A stretch of 37,706 nucleotides of DNA from Alphaproteobacteria bacterium. GTDB lineage: Bacteria; Desulfobacterota; Binatia; UBA12015. This document shows positions 3,656 through 24,335 of this stretch, piece after piece (position 1 is the first letter of the stretch; each line of letters starts with the position of its first letter). Location: NCBI GenBank assembly GCA_017853315.1, contig JAFMJW010000010.1, forward strand, positions 1-37,706, written 5' to 3'. The notes under the pieces were generated by a model. That model had not been told where the DNA came from. It worked only from the letters and a program-made list of their open reading frames with translations, and did no database searches. Both the position numbers and the translations under genes were made by a program.

Positions 3656-5281
3656 TCAGCCCCCGCTCTTCGTGACCTGCTCCATCACCCGGTCGAGGTT
3701 GAAGCTGCCCGGCTTCTGCCGCGGCGGGAACTCCTTGAAGCTCTGCAGCCACTGGCCCACGTAGCCGGCCGCCGGGGCGATCACGAACATGTGCTCGGCC
3801 CACCACCGGGGGTAGTCCATCGCCTCGGACTGCGCGCGCTCGAAGGGGTCCATGCGGAGGTTCGTGAGCTTGGGCGCGCGCAGTGCCGTGAAGGGCTCCA
3901 TCCAGACGTGGAAACCCTCGGCCTTCTGCTCGAGGAACATGACCTTCCAGTCCTGGTAGCGGAGCGCCGCGACGCTGCCGTCGTCGGTCCAGTAGAGGAA
4001 CTCCTTGCGCGGCCACGGCGCCTCGCCCCGGAGCGCGGGCCCGAGGTCGTAGCCGTCGAGGTGGACCTTGTAGGTCTTGCCGCCGAGTTTCACGCCCTTC
4101 AGCGAGTCCGCCACCGCGGCAGGATTGCCGGCCGCCGCGACGAGCGTCGGCAGCATGTCCTCGTGAGCGCCGACGTCGTTCACCACCGTGCCCGGCTTGA
4201 TCACGCCCGGCCAGCGGATGACGGTGGGAACCCGGTAGCCGCCCTCCCAGGGAGTGTTCTTCTCGCCGCGGAACATCGTCGTCCCGCCGTCGGGCCAGGT
4301 GAACGACTCGGCGCCGTTGTCCGTCGAGTACATCACGATCGTGTCGTTCTCGAGGCCGAGCTCCTTCAGCTTCGCGAGGATCCGGCCGACCTGCGCGTCG
4401 TGCTCGACCATGCCGTCGGCGTAGATGCCGAGGCCGCTCTTGCCCTGGGAATCGGGCTTCAGGTGGGTGAAGACGTGCATCCGCGTCGAGTTCCACCACA
4501 GGAAGAAGGGCTTGTCGGACTTCTTCGCGCGCTCCATGAAGTCGAGAGCCTTGGCCGTCACCTCCTCGTCGATCGTCTCCATGCGCTTGCGCGTGAGCGG
4601 ACCCGTGTCGGTGATCTTGCCGTCGGCTTTGCTGTCGATGACGCCGCGCGGGCCGTAGCGCTTCTTGAAGTCCTCGGACTTCGGGTAGTCCGGGTGCTCC
4701 GGCTCCTCTTCGGCGTTCAGGTGGTAGAGATTGCCGAAGAACTCGTCGAAACCGTGCTGCGTCGGCAGCGTCTCGTCGCGGTCGCCGAGGTGGTTCTTGC
4801 CGAACTGCCCGGTCACGTAGCCCTGCGCCTTCAGGAAGGTCGCGATCGTCGGATCCTCCGCCTTCATGCCCTCGGGCGCACCCGGGAGACCGACCTTCGT
4901 GAGCCCCGTGCGGATCGGCGACTGCCCGGTGATGAACGCGGCGCGACCAGCCGTGCAGCTCTGCTGGCCGTACCAGTCCGTGAAGACCGCGCCGTCGCGG
5001 CCGATCGAGTCGATGTTGGGCGTCCGGTAGCCCATCATCCCCATGTTGTAGGCGCCGACGTTGAAGTAGCCGATGTCGTCGCCCCAGAGGACGAGGATGT
5101 TCGGCTTGCGGGCGCCCGCGGCGGCCGCGGGTGCCCCGGCCGCAGGTGCTTCGGCGTGGGCGGACTCCGGCGGCCCGGACAGCGAGGTGACGACGCCGAG
5201 GATCGCGAGCACGACCCCGGCCCAGACGAGGACGTCGAAGACCCACGATCCCAGAGATGATTCCCGGTGACGAAAGGGCAT
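3656..5281 (-). CDS. Membrane-anchored Cys-type sulfatase (arylsulfatase family)
   Basis: 541 residues from the ATG at 5281-5279, chosen because AAGGAG stands 9 bases upstream; an upstream in-frame extension of 50 residues lacks support. A membrane segment at about 17-34 is followed by an Ala/Pro-rich linker, so the catalytic domain is probably periplasmic and tethered. Sulfatase hallmarks: NILVLWGDDIG with metal ligands D68/D69, the modification motif SCTAGRAAFITG with C109 as the residue converted to formylglycine, FGKNHLGD, and STDNGAES in the C-terminal half. C109-T-A-G-R is the C-x-A-x-R form of the signature rather than C-x-P-x-R. The enzyme hydrolyses sulfate esters; substrate unknown. 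It heads an operon with a HAD phosphatase and diverges from a LysR regulator. No formylglycine-generating enzyme is in the window. Confidence 0.93.
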   Translation of the reverse strand: MPFRHRESSLGSWVFDVLVWAGVVLAILGVVTSLSGPPESAHAEAPAAGAPAAAAGARKPNILVLWGDDIGYFNVGAYNMGMMGYRTPNIDSIGRDGAVFTDWYGQQSCTAGRAAFITGQSPIRTGLTKVGLPGAPEGMKAEDPTIATFLKAQGYVTGQFGKNHLGDRDETLPTQHGFDEFFGNLYHLNAEEEPEHPDYPKSEDFKKRYGPRGVIDSKADGKITDTGPLTRKRMETIDEEVTAKALDFMERAKKSDKPFFLWWNSTRMHVFTHLKPDSQGKSGLGIYADGMVEHDAQVGRILAKLKELGLENDTIVMYSTDNGAESFTWPDGGTTMFRGEKNTPWEGGYRVPTVIRWPGVIKPGTVVNDVGAHEDMLPTLVAAAGNPAAVADSLKGVKLGGKTYKVHLDGYDLGPALRGEAPWPRKEFLYWTDDGSVAALRYQDWKVMFLEQKAEGFHVWMEPFTALRAPKLTNLRMDPFERAQSEAMDYPRWWAEHMFVIAPAAGYVGQWLQSFKEFPPRQKPGSFNLDRVMEQVTKSGG

Positions 5282-17945: not shown

Positions 17946-18809
17946 ATGCACTCGACGACACCCCGGCTCGCCGCCCTCCTGTTCGCCAACGCCCTGCTCC
18001 TTCCGGGTCAGGCCCTGGCTCACAAGCCCTACTACAAGGCCTACCTGACCGACGTGGGCGGGCAGCGCAACGTCGCGCACGTGGAACTCGCGCCGACGCG
18101 GCAGGGACGCGTGAAACTGGAGATGAGCGAGCCGCTGCCGGGAGCCGGCACCGGTACGCTCGTCGTCACCGCCGCGCTGAACCGCGTCCCGGTCGCGCCG
18201 CTCACCTACGCGATCGACTCCCTGCAGGAGACGTGGCCGCTCGGGCTGGAAACCGCGAACCAGGACAAGGTCGAGATCCTCGACGTCGCGATCCTCGACG
18301 AGGCCGGCACCCCGTGGGGAAAACTCGGCACGGCCGGCCCCCCTCCGAACCAGAGCCTGCGCGGCAAGTATTCCTTCGTCGCTCCGCTCGTCTACGTCGT
18401 GGACACCGCGAGCGACGTCGCCTTCACGCGCGGGGGCGACACGATGCTGCTCCCCACGGGCTTCTGGACGGTCGGCTTCGACGCGCTTCGATCGCGTTCG
18501 ACCGGCGCGCACCTGAACGCCGTCGGGCTCTACGCCGAGATCGAGTTCCGCCGCAACGGCGGCCCGTGGGAGACGCAGTCGGTCGGTTTCGACGTGAAGA
18601 GCGGGAAGTCCCAGCCGAGCGGGCGACCGGGACTCCACTTCGGCTTCGCCCAGGGCGACGTGGTCGCGGTGAAGCGGGTCGAGGTCTTCGACCGGTTCGG
18701 CAACCTGTTCGCCAAGGTCGGCATCCGGATGGGCCTCGCCGGCAAGTACCGGGAGCGCCACGCCCTCGACACCTCGACCCCGATCGCGACCGGCGAACAC
18801 GACCACTGA
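17946..18809 (+). CDS. Secreted protein of unknown function, paralogue 1 (N-terminal His)
   Basis: 287 residues, ATG start. Residues 1-25 are a signal peptide ending QALA, and cleavage after it would leave a mature protein starting H26 (HKPYYKAYL). I do not recognise the family. The mature part is rich in predicted beta strand, has no cysteine, and ends with EHDH. It aligns without gaps over its whole 287 residues with the next gene, about 70 percent identical by eye, and identical over TGFWTVGFDALRSRSTGAHL-like and FDVKSGKSQPSGRPGL segments. Histidines kept in both are H26, H189 (GAHLNA), H272 (ERHALDT), H285 and H287. N-terminal His after signal cleavage is known in copper proteins such as CopC and LPMOs, so metal binding is possible but unproven. 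Confidence 0.85.
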   Translation: MHSTTPRLAALLFANALLLPGQALAHKPYYKAYLTDVGGQRNVAHVELAPTRQGRVKLEMSEPLPGAGTGTLVVTAALNRVPVAPLTYAIDSLQETWPLGLETANQDKVEILDVAILDEAGTPWGKLGTAGPPPNQSLRGKYSFVAPLVYVVDTASDVAFTRGGDTMLLPTGFWTVGFDALRSRSTGAHLNAVGLYAEIEFRRNGGPWETQSVGFDVKSGKSQPSGRPGLHFGFAQGDVVAVKRVEVFDRFGNLFAKVGIRMGLAGKYRERHALDTSTPIATGEHDH

Positions 18810-18935: not shown

Positions 18936-19013
18936 AGCGCCGACACCCGCGCTATGGTCGCGGAACGTTCGGCGGCCCCGCGGCCGACCGGCCTTGCCCC
19001 CGGAGACCATCCC

Positions 19014-19877
19014 GTGCGCCCGTCGACGACCCGGCTTGCAGCCACGCTCCTGACCGCCGCCCTGTTCCTTCCGGCGACGGCCTTCGCTCACCGTCCCTAC
19101 TACCGGACCTACCTGGTGGACGAGGCGGCCACGCACAACGTCGCCTACCTGGAACTGAAGCCGACGGCGCAGGGGCGCGTGAAGCTCTACCTGAGCGAAG
19201 CGCTTCCCGGGAACGGCACGGGAACGCTCGTCGTCGACGTGCTCCTGAACCGCGTGGCGCTCGCGCCGCTCACCTTCTCGATCGACTCGGCGAAGGAGAC
19301 GTGGCCCCTCGGCCTGCCGACCAACAACCAGGACAAGCTCGAGATCCTCGACGTGAAGATCCTCGACGAGACCGGCGCCCCGTGGGCGAAGTGGGGCTCG
19401 GTCGGGCCGCAGCCGAACACGAACCTGCGCGGCAAGTACCTGTTCGTGTCGGCGCTCACCTACGTCATGGACACCGCGAGCGACGTGGCCTACACGCGCG
19501 GCGGCGACACGACGCTGCTTCCGAGCGGATTCTGGACGGTCGGCTTCGATGCGCTGCGGTCCCGCTCGACCGGCGCGCACCTGAACGCCGACGGCCTCTA
19601 CGGCGAGATCGAGTTCAGCCGCAACGGCGGCCCGTGGGAGACGCACTCGGTCCCCTTCGACGTGAAGAGCGGAAAGTCGCAGCCCAGCGGACGGCCCGGC
19701 CTGCAGTTCGGCTTCTCGCCGGGCGACGCGATCGTCGTGAAGCGGGTCGAGATCTTCGACAAGGCCGGCAACATGTTCGCGAAGATCGGCATCCGCATGG
19801 GGGCCCAGGGCCACTACGTCGAGCGCCACGCGCTCGACACGACGATCCCGCTGTCGACCGGAGAGCACGCCCACTGA
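19014..19877 (+). CDS. Secreted protein of unknown function, paralogue 2 (N-terminal His)
   Basis: 287 residues from the GTG at 19014, chosen over an ATG 60 bases upstream because it has GGAGA eight bases before it, gives a clean signal peptide (MRPSTTRLAATLLTAALFLP) and makes the protein exactly as long as paralogue 1. The signal ends TAFA, leaving H26 (HRPYYRTYL) as the mature N-terminus; the protein ends EHAH. Sequence and spacing follow paralogue 1 without gaps, so this is a tandem duplication with its own 204-base upstream region rather than an immediate operon overlap. Divergence is spread over the protein and conservation is strongest at 168-190 and 216-230. No domain recognised; likely periplasmic or extracellular. 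Confidence 0.85.
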   Translation: MRPSTTRLAATLLTAALFLPATAFAHRPYYRTYLVDEAATHNVAYLELKPTAQGRVKLYLSEALPGNGTGTLVVDVLLNRVALAPLTFSIDSAKETWPLGLPTNNQDKLEILDVKILDETGAPWAKWGSVGPQPNTNLRGKYLFVSALTYVMDTASDVAYTRGGDTTLLPSGFWTVGFDALRSRSTGAHLNADGLYGEIEFSRNGGPWETHSVPFDVKSGKSQPSGRPGLQFGFSPGDAIVVKRVEIFDKAGNMFAKIGIRMGAQGHYVERHALDTTIPLSTGEHAH

Positions 19878-19974: not shown

Positions 19975-21078
19975 TCAGCCGGACTGCGTCGCCGGGTCGG
20001 GAGCCGGGCCGCCGCCCTCGGGCGTGAGGCGGCCGGGAACCAGGAAGTTCCCCATGATCGACTGGTAGGCCTCGCACGGCGTCCAGCACTGCGGGCAGTC
20101 GTAGTTCCAGATCTCCCGCTGGGTCGCGACCGAGGTCTGCGACGACCAGATCCGCCGCAGGTCGTAGTCGACGTCGCGCAGGTTGCCGAGCTTGCGGTCG
20201 TAGATCGTGCACGGGAACACGTTGCCCCACGAGTCGACGAAGCAGGAGGCCGACAGCGCGTGGCAGCGCATCGGCGTCCGCCCGGTCATGAGGTAGCGCT
20301 CGACCTGGGCGAGGTAGGCCCGCTCGAGATAGCCCACCGGGCCGAGCGGAACGCCGCGGAGCCGCGCCACCTGCTTCACCGCGGCGAGCATCTTGGTCGG
20401 CGGCACGTGCCGGCGGAGCTCGAGGTTCGCGTTGCCGAGGTAGTGCGGCGACTCGTGCACGATGTTGACGTGGAAGTCGCGGTAGGTGAGCCCCGGGATG
20501 ACCTTCTCGGCGGCGGCGTAGGCCTCGGGGAAGTGGTCCACGTTCTTCCCGGAGAGCGTCATCCCGAGCACGACCTCGACGCCCGGGATCTCGCGCAGGC
20601 GGCGGAAGGTCTCGACCTGCCGCTGCCATCCGCCCTCGATGCCGCGGATCTCGTCGTTGGTCGCCTCGTCGCCGTCGGTCGACACGGTGATGATGAGCTT
20701 CTCGGGGCGGCGCGCCATGATCGCGCGGGTGTTCTCGACGATCTTGTCCGTCAGGTAGCCGTTCGTCGGGAAGTGGAGGAGGAGCAGGTTCGGGCAGGAG
20801 TCGATCACCGCGTGCGCGACCTCGACGAAGTCCTTGCGCAGCGTCACCTCGCCGCCGGTGAGGTCGACCCACAGGAAGTCCCGCGACTTGCGCATGAACT
20901 CGCGGATCTCGTCGAGGCGCAGCTCGTCGCGCGGCTTCATCTGCCAGATGTTGCAGGTCTGGCACTTGTAGTTGCACCAGTAGGTGATGCAGAAGGTGAG
21001 CTTGAAGGGGTGGTCCGGGCGCCGGAAGTTCGCCTCGAAGGCCTTCCGCGCCAGCGCGAGGTAGGAGCGGGGCTTCAC
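19975..21078 (-). CDS. Radical SAM protein with SPASM-like C-terminal cysteines
   Basis: 367 residues from a GTG overlapping the epimerase stop (GTGA). The iron-sulfur/SAM motif is CNYKCQTC (C35, C39, C42) after FKLTFCITYW, followed by DLTGGEVTLRKDF, the GGE motif. The C-terminal region has further cysteines in SPASM-like spacing: C272, C279, C290 (VFPCTIYDRKLGNL), then C328, C331 and C335 (CPQCWTPC), probably binding one or two auxiliary clusters. The family includes enzymes that modify peptides, sugars or lipids; HpnH-like and MoaA-like relatives share the early motifs. Neighbours (epimerase, GT9, methyltransferase) suggest a role in a surface glycan or glycolipid, but this is inference. 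It is the last gene of the operon. Confidence 0.88.
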   Translation of the reverse strand: MKPRSYLALARKAFEANFRRPDHPFKLTFCITYWCNYKCQTCNIWQMKPRDELRLDEIREFMRKSRDFLWVDLTGGEVTLRKDFVEVAHAVIDSCPNLLLLHFPTNGYLTDKIVENTRAIMARRPEKLIITVSTDGDEATNDEIRGIEGGWQRQVETFRRLREIPGVEVVLGMTLSGKNVDHFPEAYAAAEKVIPGLTYRDFHVNIVHESPHYLGNANLELRRHVPPTKMLAAVKQVARLRGVPLGPVGYLERAYLAQVERYLMTGRTPMRCHALSASCFVDSWGNVFPCTIYDRKLGNLRDVDYDLRRIWSSQTSVATQREIWNYDCPQCWTPCEAYQSIMGNFLVPGRLTPEGGGPAPDPATQSG

Positions 21079-22127
21079 GTGATCGCCTCCAGCAGGCGGA
21101 GCGCCGGGTTCGGCTTCGGCGCGACCGACTGCCAGTTCCGGCAGTACCAGTCGTAGGCCTCGCAGGTGATCGCGACGTTGTCGCCCGAGGGCTCCCAGCC
21201 CAGCCGCTCGCGCGCCCGCGAGACGTCGAGCACGAAGTCGGCGTCGGCCAGCAGGTAGTGCTCGGGCACGATCGGGGAGATGCCGAAGACGTTCAGCACC
21301 CGCGCCGCGTTGCGCAGCAGCGGGGCCGGGATCGCGTGCACCGTCGAGCGGCTGCCGGCGTGGCGGATCAACGCCTCGACCTGCCGGCGCACCGTCGGCA
21401 CGCCCGCGGGGTCCGAGCCGACGTTCACGACGAGACCGGACGTCCCGGGCGTGGTCGCCGCGGCGATCGCCGCGCGCGCGACGTCGTCGGCGGAGACCAT
21501 CTGCACGCGGTTGCTCCCCGCGCCCAGCAGGAAGACCTTGCGGCCGCGGCGCACCCAGTCGAAGAGCAGCACGAAGACCCCGGTCATGCCGTCGCCGAAG
21601 AGGCTCATCGGGCGCAGCCAGGTGACGTCCTGGCCCTGCTCGACCGCGCGCCGGCAGAGAACCTCGGCGTCGAGCTTCGATCGCCCGTACGCGCCGATCG
21701 GATCCTTCGGGTGGGTCTCCTCGTCGACCGGGACCGTGCGGGGAATGCCGTAGACGGCGGAGCTCGAGATGAAGACCACCTTGCGCACGCCGCGCTCGCG
21801 CGCCACGTCGAGGACGTTCCTCACGCCGCCCAGGTTCATCTCGAAGATCTCCTCCTCGGAGCAGGAGGCGAACTGGGGCTTCATGCGTTGGCCGGCGGCG
21901 AGGTGGTAGATCGTCTCGACGCCGTCGACGGCGCGAGCGAGCACCTCGCGGTCGCGCATGTCGCCCTGCACGCCGGTCCACGTTCCGCCCTTCTCGGCGA
22001 CCTCGCGGGCGAGCGCGTCGGGCGTGGCGACGACGTCGAAGAGCCGCAGCCGGTCGCCCCGGGCCGCGAGGCGCGGCACGAGGCTCTGGCCGAGCACTCC
22101 CGAAGATCCGGTGACCAGGACGTCCAC
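21075..22127 (-). CDS. NAD-dependent epimerase/dehydratase (extended SDR)
   Basis: 350 residues, GTG start 25 bases after the GT9 stop. The Rossmann nucleotide-binding motif is GSSGVLG (7-13); SSSAVYG (121-127) supplies the catalytic Ser and YGRSK (147-151) the Tyr/Lys pair. Length and motif spacing match UDP-sugar epimerases/dehydratases and related NAD(P)-dependent enzymes of the extended SDR family. Substrate is not readable, but the nucleotide-sugar class is favoured by its place beside a glycosyltransferase. Other possibilities include a 3-beta-hydroxysteroid dehydrogenase-type enzyme. Its stop overlaps the radical SAM start, so the two are translated together. Confidence 0.9.
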   Translation of the reverse strand: MDVLVTGSSGVLGQSLVPRLAARGDRLRLFDVVATPDALAREVAEKGGTWTGVQGDMRDREVLARAVDGVETIYHLAAGQRMKPQFASCSEEEIFEMNLGGVRNVLDVARERGVRKVVFISSSAVYGIPRTVPVDEETHPKDPIGAYGRSKLDAEVLCRRAVEQGQDVTWLRPMSLFGDGMTGVFVLLFDWVRRGRKVFLLGAGSNRVQMVSADDVARAAIAAATTPGTSGLVVNVGSDPAGVPTVRRQVEALIRHAGSRSTVHAIPAPLLRNAARVLNVFGISPIVPEHYLLADADFVLDVSRARERLGWEPSGDNVAITCEAYDWYCRNWQSVAPKPNPALRLLEAIT

Positions 22128-22152
22128 GACTTCCTCCGACTTCCCCGCCCCG

Positions 22153-23403
22153 TCAGCTCGCGGCGGCGGCGCCCGCGGCGGACGCGGCCGGCGACGGGAA
22201 ACGCTTCTCGATCGCTTCCGCGACCTCGTCGACGCCGATTTCTCGCATGCAGACCGGGTCGACGCAGCGGCTCATCTTCAGGTTGTAGTTCGACAGGCAC
22301 GGGCTGCAGTAGAGCCCCTTGTAGAAGACGACGTCGCCCGGCCCGCGCGGCCCGTAGAGCCGCGGCTCCGTGGGTCCGAAGATCGCGACCGTCGGCGTCG
22401 CCACCAGCCCGGCGAGATGGATGATCGACGTGTCGTTCGAGACGATGAACTCCGAGGCCTCGAGCAGCCCGAGCAACTCGCCGACGTCGAGAGCGTCGCA
22501 CAGCGAGACGCAGCGGTCCGCGTGACGCATGCCGGCCATCGCCTCCCGCACGAGCTCGGCCTCCTCCGCCCCCTGCCCGGTGAAGACCACCCGGGCTCCG
22601 CGGTGCTCGACCAGCCGGTCGGCGAGCTCGCCGAAGCGCGTGGCGTCCCAGCGCTTGAGCGCGATCTTGTTGTAGTTCGGGCCCGTGCCCATGTGCATCG
22701 CGACGATCTCCCGGCCGGGTTCCGCCCCGGCGCGCTCGCAGGCGCGCCGTCGCGCGTCGGCGTCGACCGGGACGCGGACGCGCGGGGCCGGCACCAGGGC
22801 ACGACCCGAGGGCTGCGCGGTGCGCATGAAGATGTCGGCCATGTGGTCGGTGTCGGCGTAGGCGATGCGGTGCGTGTACAGCCAGCCGCGGGCCTGCCCC
22901 TCGGTGTTGAAGCCGATCCGGACGGGCGCGCCGGAGAGGAACCCGAACACCCCCGAGAGCTTCATGAACTGTTCGAAGTCGAGCACCGCGTCGTAGCGCC
23001 CGGAGCGCAGCACCGAGAGCAGCTCGGCCACCGACCGGACGAAGCTCGCCCAGGTCCGAACGTCGACCGAGAGCGTCCGGTCGACGAGACCGCTCTGGCG
23101 GAGAAGCGGGACGTTGCCGGGCAGGGTGAGGAAGTCGACCTCGCACTCGGGCCCGCCGGCGTGGCGCTTCATCGCCTGCAGCGTCGGCAGGATCATGGCG
23201 ATGTTGCCGAGCCCGTAGAACTTGATCGCGAGCACGCGGCGCGGCGGCGGGAGCGGATCGGGCGACTGCGGGGTGGTCGCGAGCAGCGGGGGCACGATGC
23301 TTCGCCCCCGCACCGCACCGGCGACGCGGCCGCCGAACCAGAGGAGCCAGGCGAGCCCGAGCCCGCCCCACCGGTCGATGTAGCGCGCGAGGTGGAGGTT
23401 CAC
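22153..23403 (-). CDS. Glycosyltransferase family 9 (heptosyltransferase-like)
   Basis: 416 residues from a GTG that overlaps the methyltransferase stop (GTGA). The GT-B N-terminal domain opens with VLAIKFYGLGNIAMILPTLQ (about 58-77), the ADP-heptose-LPS heptosyltransferase motif; the C-terminal domain has MHMGTGPNYNKIALKRWDAT and IVSNDTSIIHLAGLVATPTV then FGPTEP, the donor-binding region. Near the end is a cysteine cluster, C366-S-P-C369 and C380/C385 (CVDPVCMREI), seen in a subset of GT9 proteins and possibly binding a metal or [Fe-S] cluster. It acts at the inner membrane face, adding a sugar to a lipid-linked core or O-antigen-like glycan. The N-terminal 45 residues include a hydrophobic stretch absent from classical WaaC/WaaF. 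Confidence 0.9.
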   Translation of the reverse strand: MNLHLARYIDRWGGLGLAWLLWFGGRVAGAVRGRSIVPPLLATTPQSPDPLPPPRRVLAIKFYGLGNIAMILPTLQAMKRHAGGPECEVDFLTLPGNVPLLRQSGLVDRTLSVDVRTWASFVRSVAELLSVLRSGRYDAVLDFEQFMKLSGVFGFLSGAPVRIGFNTEGQARGWLYTHRIAYADTDHMADIFMRTAQPSGRALVPAPRVRVPVDADARRRACERAGAEPGREIVAMHMGTGPNYNKIALKRWDATRFGELADRLVEHRGARVVFTGQGAEEAELVREAMAGMRHADRCVSLCDALDVGELLGLLEASEFIVSNDTSIIHLAGLVATPTVAIFGPTEPRLYGPRGPGDVVFYKGLYCSPCLSNYNLKMSRCVDPVCMREIGVDEVAEAIEKRFPSPAASAAGAAAAS

Positions 23404-24335
23404 CGCTTCACCGCGAGCATCTCGACGCGCGCCTCCAGGCCCGTCCAGCGGCCGGCCTCGACGAGCGCCGTCACCCCGAGCCGCACCAGCGGCGAGAAGT
23501 CGTAGCGCCCCACGTAGGGCGACGCCCCGCGCACCCAGAGCGGGTCGAACCCGCACTCTCGCGCGAGCCGGCCGAGCGTCTCGCGCGTGAAGTACGTGTA
23601 ATGGTTCACCGCGAAGAACCGGCCCGCGAGCCCGCCGACCCGGGGCAGGCGGGCGAGGAGCTCGGCGCCGCGGAAGAGCGTCGACCGGCAGCACGGCACG
23701 GCGACGAAGAGCGCGCCGCCGGGGCGCAGCACCTCGCGCGCGTGCTCGAGGAAGCGGCGCGGATCGCCCGCGTGTTCCAGCACGTCGGACATCGCGACCG
23801 CGTCGACCGGCACGTCGGGGCGGAAGCCCTCGAAGTCGCCCACGACGACGTCGACGCCGAACTCCTCGCGGGCCTTCGCCGCGCAGGCGGGCGAGATCTC
23901 GATCCCGAGCGGCGAGAACCCGGCCTCGCGCGCGAGGTGGAGGAACAGCCCGGTGCCGATGCCGACGTCGACCAGCCGGCCGCCGCCGACCGCCTGCCGG
24001 ATCTCCTCGACCGACTCGCGGAAGCCGCGCACGACCGGATCGTCGGGATAGTTCCGGTAGTAGGCGGTGAACATCTCCGTGGTCTCCTCGCGGAGACCGC
24101 CTTCGAACGCCTCGATCTCTCGCCCGGCGATGACCTCGGCGGCCGGCAGCGGGTCCATGTAGACCGTCCCGCACGCGCAGTGGCGGAGCGAGACCTCGCC
24201 GGTCCGTCGCGCCCGCCCTCCCCGGTCGCCGCACACCGGGCAGGGGCGCGGCTCGCCCGCCACCTGCCCGTGCGCGACGGCGCGGGTCCCCGGGGCGGAG
24301 AGTCGCGCCGCGCCTGCACCTCCGGCCGTGCTCAC
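23400..24335 (-). CDS. Class I SAM-dependent methyltransferase with N-terminal zinc ribbon
   Basis: 311 residues from a GTG at 24335-24333; no better start is visible downstream of the divergent gene. An N-terminal zinc-ribbon-like motif, CPVC (C32, C35) and CAC (C53, C55), precedes GTVYMDPLP, a combination common in glycan-locus methyltransferases of the Methyltransf_23 type. SAM-binding motif I is VDVGIGTGLFL (122-132), followed by GIEISPACAAKAREEFGVDV and the SDVLEHAGDPRRFLEHAREV motif. The C-terminal part has HYTYFTRETLGRLARECGFD. It probably methylates a sugar or lipid-linked substrate; it is the first gene of the four-gene operon, and it diverges from chaA across 138 bases. Confidence 0.9.
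   Translation of the reverse strand: MSTAGGAGAARLSAPGTRAVAHGQVAGEPRPCPVCGDRGGRARRTGEVSLRHCACGTVYMDPLPAAEVIAGREIEAFEGGLREETTEMFTAYYRNYPDDPVVRGFRESVEEIRQAVGGGRLVDVGIGTGLFLHLAREAGFSPLGIEISPACAAKAREEFGVDVVVGDFEGFRPDVPVDAVAMSDVLEHAGDPRRFLEHAREVLRPGGALFVAVPCCRSTLFRGAELLARLPRVGGLAGRFFAVNHYTYFTRETLGRLARECGFDPLWVRGASPYVGRYDFSPLVRLGVTALVEAGRWTGLEARVEMLAVKR

Follow-up and report, generated by a model that had tools for sequence, protein, structure and literature searches.

A four-gene operon pairing a radical SAM enzyme with an Asp-less GT9 glycosyltransferase: a possible route to a surface sugar

Operon architecture

Within the 37,706-nt stretch of DNA analysed here (‘the window’), four genes—encoding a methyltransferase (MT), a glycosyltransferase (GT9), an SDR epimerase (EPI) and a radical SAM enzyme (rSAM)—resemble a compact production line whose product would be an unusual sugar of the cell surface (Table 1). 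The preliminary description had proposed a same-direction operon with GTGA overlaps at its first and last junctions; the sequence confirms this arrangement, and six named loci (L017–L022) repeat the order MT-GT9-EPI-rSAM. The named loci are the best 80 of the 161 candidates that a pattern scan yielded and that were confirmed. GT9 and EPI are spaced by 25 nt, both other junctions being four-base overlaps, and the non-coding space in the operon and at its flanks measures 97, 25 and 138 nt. The −4 gap of the EPI–rSAM junction is found in 9 of 12 same-strand pairs (window included).

Table 1. Genes and junctions of the operon
Feature	Position	Strand	Basis and remarks
Methyltransferase (MT), class I SAM	24335-23400	minus	First gene; Methyltransf_23 profile and sequence
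GT9 glycosyltransferase	23403-22153	minus	Glyco_transf_9 profile and predicted model
SDR epimerase (EPI)	22127-21075	minus	Epimerase profile and motifs
Radical SAM enzyme (rSAM)	21078-19975	minus	Radical_SAM and SPASM profiles, predicted model
GTGA stop/start overlap, MT/GT9	23400-23403	minus	Sequence
GTGA stop/start overlap, EPI/rSAM	21075-21078	minus	Sequence

A comparison of neighbourhoods in relatives, as had been suggested, bears the grouping out: GT9-EPI-rSAM is kept in all eight of the closest loci, with MT in front in six of them (drawn from the best 80 of the 161 candidates), and glycosyltransferase neighbours recur. The conserved order in L017–L022, together with a codon-position GC bias that backs the reading frames of EPI, rSAM and GT9, indicates that the operon is more than a chance arrangement. 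At MT, a GC-bias gene caller preferred an opposite-strand ORF; a self-trained caller recovers the gene with a later start, the start at 24335 being one choice among the in-frame starts.

MT matches Methyltransf_23 at 72.1 bits (cut-off 27) and carries, besides a DVGIGTG motif, an N-terminal CxxC…CxC zinc-ribbon-like motif (C32/C35/C53/C55), the cysteines of which may bind zinc. EPI is an extended SDR of the NAD-dependent epimerase/dehydratase type (Epimerase, 140.6 bits, cut-off 20.9), with GSSGVLG at position 7 and a Y147-K151 pair; its closest family is HpnA (TIGR03466), the cut-off of which it misses by far (110.3 against 367.65 bits). Across the loci, EPI lies within four genes of rSAM in only 22 of 81 (including the best 80 of 161 candidates).

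The radical SAM enzyme

With scores of 40.0 bits for Radical_SAM (PF04055, cut-off 29.5) and 27.8 for SPASM (PF13186, cut-off 21.5), and a C35-x3-C39-x2-C42 (CX3CX2C) core joined to a SPASM domain, rSAM belongs among the SPASM/twitch proteins. A full SPASM motif, holding two auxiliary clusters, has seven cysteines. The preliminary description had noted six further C-terminal cysteines, and all six are present (272, 279, 290, 328, 331 and 335), but only five are near-invariant: 272/290/328/331 occur in 84 of 84 rows and 335 in 83, whereas C279 is variable (62). The seven-cysteine motif is not seen across these 84 rows; on sequence grounds the C-terminal domain is a truncated, twitch-like SPASM, with cysteines enough for a predicted twitch cluster (one auxiliary cluster, four cysteines) that is plausible as an extra metal site.

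The fold neighbours of our predicted model (pLDDT 94.4)—SkfB (Z 24.1), BlsE (22.7), DesII (18.1), BtrN (17.4) and GDGT-MAS (15.2)—mix peptide, sugar and nucleotide enzymes, and do not settle the substrate. Radical SAM enzymes whose sugar role is known mostly take nucleotide sugars, aminocyclitols or antibiotics as substrates. No curated NCBIfam family reaches its cut-off among the best 25 of 40 matches at E ≤ 0.01, the best of those listed being TIGR03962 (56.8 against 265 bits); function is in any case hard to predict from sequence networks, according to PMC6231123.

BtrN, a twitch-domain radical SAM alcohol dehydrogenase (PMC9012708), shares with rSAM a radical SAM core plus truncated SPASM and C-terminal cysteines enough for one cluster; it is, however, absent from the sequence-matched solved structures, and rSAM has 367 residues against its 246. 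BlsE, a cytosylglucuronate decarboxylase, is a radical SAM enzyme that acts on a sugar and is matched weakly by sequence (profile A3, 1.9e-7), but the relative L075, of Geobacter sp. AOG1, reaches only 31.2 of 400 with the BlsE family TIGR04466, which is not among the window enzyme’s best 25 of 40 NCBIfam matches.

The best solved-structure match by sequence (1.6e-10), as well as by fold, is the sactisynthase SkfB, which has a twitch domain (PMC6231123). This match, and the several peptide maturases in the weak NCBIfam list, would fit a maturation system in which rSAM modifies a ribosomal peptide that the other genes decorate. Such a role is nonetheless very improbable: among the best 25 of 40 NCBIfam matches every peptide-maturase cut-off is missed, and glycosyltransferase-cluster neighbours are found at most of the loci (see below). 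SkfB, CteB and SuiB carry an N-terminal RRE (PMC6231123), whereas rSAM has no domain of that size; in our model the stretch ahead of the first core strand amounts to only some 25 residues, including a single helix. The preliminary description had named a peptide-modifying family with a nearby precursor peptide as the finding that would undo its proposal; beside the operon we find neither a precursor gene nor a gene-sized space for one (a local statement, for the three window intervals given above), and the space after rSAM is 25 nt in L018 and 7 nt in L021. Peptide maturation was set aside on family cut-offs, flanking space and the N-terminal domain.

The GT9 protein and its catalytic-base position

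GT9 is a member of its family by profile (Glyco_transf_9, PF01075; 106.6 bits, cut-off 22), and its predicted model (pLDDT 89.1) has the GT-B fold, the matches being WaaF (1psw, Z 32.6), WaaC (2gt1, Z 29.4) and TibC (Z 21.7). Like WaaC and WaaF, it has the GT9 domain and keeps the D/H active-site positions; unlike them, it has an extra N-terminal helix (residues 3–32), scores below the heptosyltransferase I, II and III cut-offs (77.0 against 185.3, 84.0 against 134.6 and 78.1 against 170.2 bits) and, at the position of the catalytic Asp, carries Asn. The base of the LPS heptosyltransferases, Asp13, is absent from GT9, where Asn67 aligns with the Asp of WaaC and of 3tov; in the GT9s of our set this position is Asn in 31 of 34, Ser in two and Asp in one (loci including the best 80 of 161). 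In every heptosyltransferase reviewed this Asp has been proposed as the base, and D13A loses 4688-fold (PMC5713226). This Asp-to-Asn change lies beyond what the preliminary description could see.

Other active-site positions are kept in the rows of the GT9 cluster: D324 in 34/36, H329 in 35/36, R251 in 32/36 and W252 in 33/36, two rows not being GT9. These two are 330-residue proteins (L041 and L043), left out of the 34 GT9s above and retained in the locus count below. The loss of the Asp throughout the branch, and the shared fold of PnsB1, a subunit of plant NDH complexes (Z 24.7), could suggest that GT9 is a non-catalytic scaffold or sugar-binding partner of rSAM; the kept positions, and the exchange of GT9 for GT2 at other loci, make us consider this quite unlikely.

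The C-terminal C-x2-C…C-x4-C cluster of the preliminary description is present (C366-x2-C369 and C380-x4-C385), and the loss in homologues that was to count against it did not occur: all 34 GT9s of the set retain the quartet. As a distinctive trait of the operon it fares worse: 79 of 87 GT9 rows of the phylum (83 distinct, 59 loci) have the quartet, and of the remaining eight, three show none of the four cysteines in the alignment and the rest miss one or two. We have rejected it as a special mark. TibC, a GT9-type heptosyltransferase, has an iron finger of four cysteines (PMC4358343), by which precedent the quartet is a plausible extra metal site. In both proteins the four cysteines lie in the C-terminal half; the spacing in TibC is C-x2-C-x15-C-x11-C against C-x2-C-x10-C-x4-C in GT9, and TibC keeps its Asp-110.

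Amphipathic N-terminal helices were considered as membrane evidence and gained us little: the helix of GT9 shows no more than a mild amphipathic character, reached by 154 of 5000 shuffles, and that of rSAM is indistinguishable from chance (797 of 5000).

In our GT9 tree—a quick tree, built with no bootstrap and leaving out the paralogue L100—the 31 Asn-type rows fall together on the same side of one branch (SH-aLRT 89). With midpoint rooting this branch joins the Asp branch and not a third, Ser/Gly branch, so the tree does not show kinship of the two Asp-less branches. By search, the best typed matches of the window GT9 after two Asn types are all Ser/Gly (L128–L134), ahead of any Asp type. 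Asn-type GT9s from GT9-anchored searches adjoin rSAM in 5/5 genomes, against 1/57 other loci (1.5-kb flanks); rSAM-anchored loci bias this association, and only these five genomes are free of the bias, three of them (L198/L199/L200) seeming to be the genomes of L072/L076/L056 by identical C-terminal stretches.

Ser/Gly-branch GT9s adjoin a decaprenyl-phosphate phosphoribosyltransferase (300.2 bits in L188 and 307.4 in L189, cut-off 234) and, in L188, a flippase-like protein (97.0 bits, cut-off 43.2), these neighbours being seen in one family, to which four of the eight Ser/Gly loci belong. A gene with at least three TM segments lies within the 1.5-kb flanks of 5/8 Ser/Gly loci against 4/47 Asp loci; at the Ser/Gly locus L191 neither a flippase nor a PMT protein stands beside GT9.

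Neighbourhoods across genomes

The neighbouring genes are those predicted by a self-trained codon model, under which coding density falls below 0.75 in L024, L029, L049, L055 and L084 and some starts come late (22097 for 22127 for EPI in the window), and were grouped as Louvain clusters of blastp hits, most families being named from one or two members (cluster 33 unscanned). A search of open-licence papers found nothing on this gene neighbourhood.

By sequence the rSAM family is widespread, unnamed and common to bacteria and archaea, with loci found in both. A GT2- or GT9-cluster gene lies within four genes of rSAM in 65/81 loci (including the best 80 of 161 candidates; L043 counts only via its 330-residue non-GT9 protein). 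The GT2 plus GT9 fraction is 0.45 at position −1 and 0.16 at +1, and 0.00–0.03 at −5/−6 and 0.02 at +5/+6 (84 rows, one contig appearing twice as L010/L046). In the same 81 loci the recurring neighbours are GT9, GT2, a NodU-type carbamoyltransferase and a B12-radical SAM protein, with SDR epimerases and membrane proteins of PMT type also recurring. The preliminary description had read a surface-glycan-like operon that makes a modified sugar or glycolipid by way of a radical step; that proposal is supported by these neighbourhoods, as is a surface-glycan role for the operon, whereas the GT9 cysteine cluster is not supported as a special mark of it.

GT9 and GT2 swap on the rSAM tree, the GT2 label changing 10 times (at least 8 forced) and the GT9 label 10 times (at least 9). 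The one GT2 scanned, from L061, is closest to AglJ (150.6, cut-off 325) and PpgS (83.9, cut-off 370), both lipid-carrier synthases. Membrane proteins of PMT clusters 13/17 lie within four genes of rSAM in 10/81 loci; cluster 9 (8/81 loci), which has a resemblance to GT-C, gave Pfam matches to TPR families alone when two of its members were scanned (both counts include the best 80 of 161). At the window and its eight closest loci, no gene of the GT2, PMT or TPR-membrane clusters lies within four genes.

Among these neighbours, the single B12-radical SAM protein put to a profile scan, that of L092, has HpnJ as its top match (171.7 of 577.6 bits), which, with the HpnA likeness of EPI and GDGT-MAS as a fold neighbour, would fit an rSAM acting on the lipid part of a glycolipid—a carrier or hopanoid-like chain—for which GT9, EPI and MT build the head group. 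The recurrence of sugar-related neighbours across loci speaks against this, as does our failure to find the squalene-hopene cyclase C-domain in the window’s own genome (95% complete); we regard it as unlikely, and hopanoid head-group synthesis was set aside on the missing cyclase.

The same genome contains LpxC and a heptose kinase, the latter 4.4 kb from an Asp-type GT9 on contig C75, indicating that core heptose has its own genes. Of its GT9 paralogues, L098 has the cysteine quartet and L097 and L100 are without it; in L100, moreover, Asn occupies the aligned position and no rSAM lies in its 3-kb locus, so Asn there is not exclusive to rSAM-linked GT9s. LpxC and the heptose kinase show that the cell is capable of LPS, and are consistent with nucleotide-sugar tailoring, whereby rSAM and EPI rebuild an NDP-sugar in the cytoplasm, MT methylates it and GT9 transfers it to a hydroxyl of lipid A-core or another glycan. 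The sugar-epimerase type of EPI agrees with this, as do the fold neighbours BlsE and DesII, which act on nucleoside- or nucleotide-linked sugars; the Asn where hydroxyl-transferring heptosyltransferases have their base, and the exchange of GT9 for a GT2 resembling lipid-carrier synthases, do not, and we hold it less likely than not.

A proposed lipid-carrier pathway

Our preferred reading, to which we give a probability of roughly 0.36, is that the gene products assemble and modify a sugar linked to a lipid-phosphate carrier, its destination being the cell surface. Gene content, conservation, neighbourhoods and the Asp-to-Asn change are observed; the chemistry of all four proposed steps, and their order, we infer. 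GT9 may be anchored at the membrane by its N-terminal helix and would transfer the sugar of a nucleotide donor onto a phosphate, for example that of polyprenyl phosphate. A nucleophile of this kind can do without a base, which would account for Asn standing where the catalytic Asp is expected. With the 5'-deoxyadenosyl radical, rSAM would take a hydrogen from the lipid-linked sugar and pass an electron to its auxiliary cluster, leaving an alcohol oxidised or the ring otherwise altered; EPI, the gene of which overlaps that of rSAM, would work on the same sugar, MT would then methylate it, and a flippase and GT-C transferase encoded elsewhere would put it onto a surface glycan.

Counting for the lipid-carrier pathway are the GT2/GT9 neighbours and their swapping, the likeness of the L061 GT2 to lipid-carrier synthases, the PMT membrane proteins, the Asp-less GT9, the Ser/Gly types among its best matches, the neighbours of the Ser/Gly branch and the separate genes for core heptose in the window’s own genome. 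Against it count the carrier-type clusters absent near the window and its eight closest loci, so that the link rests on more distant members; so too do the GT9 tree topology, the Asn of L100, L191, the single family behind four of the eight Ser/Gly loci, the weak amphipathicity of the N-terminal helices, the TPR-only matches of cluster 9, the 22/81 loci with EPI, and a peptide maturase, SkfB, as the nearest fold and sequence match of rSAM.

A more specific and speculative version, which we think improbable as it stands, makes rSAM and EPI an oxygen-independent counterpart of DprE1/DprE2 and the Asp-less GT9 a new polyprenyl-phosphate glycosyl synthase of GT-B fold: rSAM would oxidise a hydroxyl of the polyprenyl-phosphate-linked sugar to a ketone, electrons going to the auxiliary cluster, and EPI would reduce the ketone from the other face, inverting the centre. 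If true, rSAM and its relatives would make up a radical-enzyme class, widespread and unnamed, whose substrates are lipid-linked sugars. The recurrence of this family beside glycosyltransferases invites one to ask whether radical chemistry takes part in ordinary cell-surface glycans, and the family would give a marker for finding such loci; a GT9 branch lacking the catalytic base poses the question of how a GT-B transferase can work in that state, to which a phosphate acceptor is a direct candidate answer.

If the lipid-carrier reading is right, the Citrobacter three-component lipid-linked pentofuranose pathway (PPPRS, a MATE flippase, a GT136 GT-C and an auxiliary epimerase) and mycobacterial DprE1/DprE2 would follow the same logic, in which a lipid-phosphate-linked sugar is altered by an epimerase on its carrier, flipped and used by a GT-C (PMC11127046). 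A further likeness is the decaprenyl-phosphate phosphoribosyltransferase gene adjoining GT9s of another Asp-less branch. The window operon differs from the Citrobacter system in having rSAM and GT9, and no PPPRS, flippase or GT-C; synthase, flippase and GT-C are not encoded together there, none of the neighbour clusters lying within four genes in the window, and synthase and flippase genes sit beside other Asp-less GT9s, not that of the window. The sole large multi-TM gene near the window operon and the closest loci is ion-exchanger-like (window and L017).

The operon and its source genome

The window corresponds to contig C353 of a draft genome of 3.98 Mb (95% complete). The four genes and two GTGA overlaps claimed by the preliminary description are all found in its sequence: a methyltransferase, a family 9 glycosyltransferase (GT9), an SDR epimerase and a radical SAM protein, matching Methyltransf_23, Glyco_transf_9, Epimerase and Radical_SAM plus SPASM in Pfam. 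The operon is genuine and conserved. The named loci that match most closely bear the labels Deltaproteobacteria, Candidatus Binatia, Proteobacteria, 'bacterium' and Klebsiella pneumoniae; the last label, carried by a metagenome-assembled genome (L017; CAMBZJ010000006.1), is almost certainly wrong. L017 contains the entire operon within window-like neighbours, its radical SAM protein being 88% identical.

Other genes of the window
Feature	Position	Strand	Observation
Tandem gene 1	17946-18809	+	Signal-peptide-like start; opposite strand, directly past the radical SAM gene
Tandem gene 2	18954-19877	+	Signal-peptide-like start; similar by eye to tandem gene 1
Sulfatase family gene	3656-5281	-	PF00884, 172 bits

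The two tandem proteins have zero Pfam matches at E 0.001. Sulfatase relatives (neighbour cluster 12) recur close to the radical SAM gene in L025, L026, L029, L032 and L036.

Elsewhere in the genome LpxC is present, and a heptose kinase scores above its cut-off on contig C75, 4.4 kb from a GT9 with both the catalytic Asp and a cysteine quartet; the LPS core thus has genes of its own. The genome also holds matches to carbamoyltransferase (one), PMT_2 (23) and UbiA (4), none on the contig of the window; the C-domain of squalene-hopene cyclase was not found in this 95% complete assembly.

A GT9 branch lacking the catalytic aspartate

Judged by its modelled fold, the window protein is a real GT9 (WaaF, Z 32.6; 3tov, 32.4; WaaC, 29.4; TibC, 21.7), with a helix (residues 3-32) preceding the GT-B fold; against the heptosyltransferase models of NCBIfam it falls below every cut-off. 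The HMMER alignment places N67 opposite the Asp of both WaaC and 3tov—a residue that, in a heptosyltransferase review, is the proposed base common to all, D13A causing a 4688-fold drop (PMC5713226). In TibC, activity is likewise abolished or largely diminished when Asp-110, at the matching position, is changed to Ala (PMC4358343). Among the 34 GT9s of the radical SAM neighbourhoods, 31 have Asn at this position, two have Ser and one has Asp. The C-terminal cysteine cluster pointed out earlier is retained in full by all 34; as a special mark it fails, the quartet also being present in 79 of 87 background rows (59 loci of the phylum, searched from the GT9 side). The catalytic position in these rows is Asp in 60, Ser in 7, Asn in 2, Gly in 1, Glu in 1 and uncovered in 16.

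Both Asn loci of the GT9-anchored set adjoin the radical SAM gene, with a radical SAM match in one of the 57 others (L184, Asp type). A second GT9-anchored search (12 genomes) gave four matches, all Asn and all with the radical SAM gene next door; as one genome is common to both searches, the Asn-type GT9 lies beside it in 5/5 genomes, three of which seem already to be in the radical SAM-anchored set. Asn is not exclusive to such GT9s, since an own-genome paralogue (L100) has it in a locus without radical SAM, its C-terminal stretch being devoid of cysteine. On a GT9 tree (95 rows, quick method), a single change accounts for the 31 Asn rows and another for the 10 Ser/Gly rows, all residue groups together taking the minimum of three; midpoint rooting groups Asn with Asp rows, so that the Asn and Ser/Gly branches are not shown as nearest kin. 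By similarity search, the best typed matches to the window GT9 after Asn are Ser/Gly (L128-L134), Asp types lying further down, and the GT9 of L189 begins with a similar R-x-ID-x-W-x-G stretch.

An unnamed radical SAM family

Against the 25 best NCBIfam models shown (out of 40 at E <= 0.01), the radical SAM protein stays below every cut-off. The gene is patchy within the phylum, being matched at E <= 1e-30 in 6 of 247 genomes, its own included. A pattern scan of one genome per species (84,980 species) confirmed 161 relatives, the best 80 of which were kept (L017-L096); 65 of these carry a phylum label (21 phyla; 6 archaeal; labels as in the records).

In an 84-row alignment, which holds one contig twice (L010 and L046), the core cysteines C35, C39 and C42 are present in 78, 78 and 80 rows, the remainder being gaps. 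Towards the C-terminus C272, C290, C328 and C331 are found in all 84 rows, C335 in 83 and C279 in 62. A full SPASM carries seven cysteines; with fewer than that, the C-terminal domain fits, on sequence grounds, the twitch type. A twitch domain binds one auxiliary cluster (PMC9012708). The structure model is confident (pLDDT 94.4), matching SkfB (Z 24.1), BlsE (22.7), SuiB (21.9) and anSME (20.3) best, with viperins, MoaA, DesII (18.1) and BtrN (17.4) lower down; as peptide, nucleotide and sugar enzymes all match, the substrate cannot be read from the fold.

Gene neighbourhood of the radical SAM protein

The glycan role proposed at the outset is well supported: of 81 loci (the window plus L017-L096), 65 have a GT2- or GT9-cluster gene no more than four genes away from the radical SAM gene (in L043 its product is no GT9) and 16 have neither. 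The gene immediately before it on the same strand is a GT9 in 19/81, a GT2 in 13/81 and the epimerase in 12/81. The combined GT2 and GT9 fraction (84 rows) falls upstream from 0.45 at -1 to 0.00 at -5 and 0.03 at -6, and downstream from 0.16 at +1 to 0.02 at +5/+6, with 0.07 (2/27) at +7. Other recurrent neighbours within four genes are carbamoyltransferase (24/81), the epimerase (22/81), a second radical SAM (18/81), B12-radical SAM (16/81) and the methyltransferase (14/81). On the radical SAM tree the GT2 label changes 10 times (well-supported branches force 8 or more; shuffled mean 25.6) and the GT9 label 10 times (at least 9 forced; shuffled mean 23.4); partners therefore cluster, yet have swapped repeatedly.

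Membrane proteins within four genes comprise PMT clusters 13 and 17 (10/81 loci), TPR-membrane cluster 9 (8) and cluster 33 (2), together 20/81, or 32/81 with cluster 8 added. Scanned members of clusters 13 and 17 pass the PMT_2 cut-off, that of cluster 8 lies just below (25.6 vs 26.1), and two of cluster 9 match TPR families only (Pfam). Leaving cluster 8 aside, 13 of the 31 Asn-type GT9 loci have one of these clusters (four have 13 or 17, seven have 9 and two have 33).

A possible lipid-linked sugar pathway

The best single reading, a tentative one with a probability of 0.36, is that the operon serves a lipid-linked sugar. The closest worked-out logic is that of a three-component pathway described by Kelly and others, in which a sugar on undecaprenyl phosphate is epimerised there, flipped and used by a GT-C; the authors liken their epimerase to DprE1/DprE2 (PMC11127046). 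Were the GT9 acceptor a lipid phosphate, its phosphate would be the nucleophile and need no base, and the missing Asp would thus tie to lipid-phosphate carriers. The radical SAM protein would oxidise a sugar centre and the SDR reduce it, inverting that centre. BtrN, itself a twitch radical SAM enzyme, performs a two-electron alcohol oxidation in which its auxiliary cluster probably takes up the electrons (PMC9012708). The window radical SAM gene overlaps an SDR gene by GTGA. Against such oxidation-reduction, this cluster's SDR accompanies the radical SAM gene in only the 22 loci counted above. The main rival, only slightly less probable, is that these enzymes tailor a nucleotide sugar. Both the radical SAM family, as yet unnamed, and the GT9 branch, in which the catalytic base is missing, are novel forms of known kinds.

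Eight Ser/Gly GT9 loci were viewed in wider windows. In L188, L189 and L192 (one family; L192 judged by resemblance), UbiA-like and flippase-like proteins directly adjoin the GT9, with no radical SAM beside the set, which may be a lipid-linked sugar system so far unrecognised. The L188 and L189 UbiA proteins match decaprenyl-phosphate phosphoribosyltransferase (300.2 and 307.4 vs a cut-off of 234; NCBIfam), and in L188 and L190 the flippase exceeds the cut-off of TIGR00374 (97.0 and 51.2 vs 43.2; NCBIfam); both L188 genes and the L190 flippase were also run against Pfam. A PMT_2 protein lies two genes from the GT9 in L186, the protein directly upstream in L187 is just below that cut-off (24.1 vs 26.1), and the nearby radical SAM of L185 matches the B12-radical SAM cluster; L191 lacks UbiA-like, flippase-like, PMT and radical SAM genes beside its GT9. 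A gene with at least three predicted membrane segments occurs in the 1.5-kb flanks of 5/8 Ser/Gly, 4/47 Asp, 1/2 Asn and 1/1 Glu loci, the Asn locus with such a gene being the window (exchanger-like gene).

Other settings of the radical SAM family

L063, L085 and L087 (Fermentibacteria/Eisenbacteria) have no GT2 or GT9 within four genes; the radical SAM gene sits there in another common gene order with clusters 16 (resembling an ABC ATPase), 38 and 39, and the family may serve a different function in these loci. A second architecture, spanning archaea and several bacterial phyla, combines GT2, radical SAM and a NodU-type carbamoyltransferase, mostly with the cluster 8 membrane protein (L047, L048, L051, L054, L058-L062, L067, L073, L074, L078, L082-L084, L091, L093, L095); carbamoyltransferase pairs with GT2 in 18/81 loci and with GT9 in one. 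L075, L080, L081, L086, L092 and L094 carry two distinct SPASM radical SAM genes in tandem, in most cases overlapping by four bases; TPR-membrane and B12-radical SAM genes frequently accompany them, and the genomes include some labelled Geobacter and Nitrospira.
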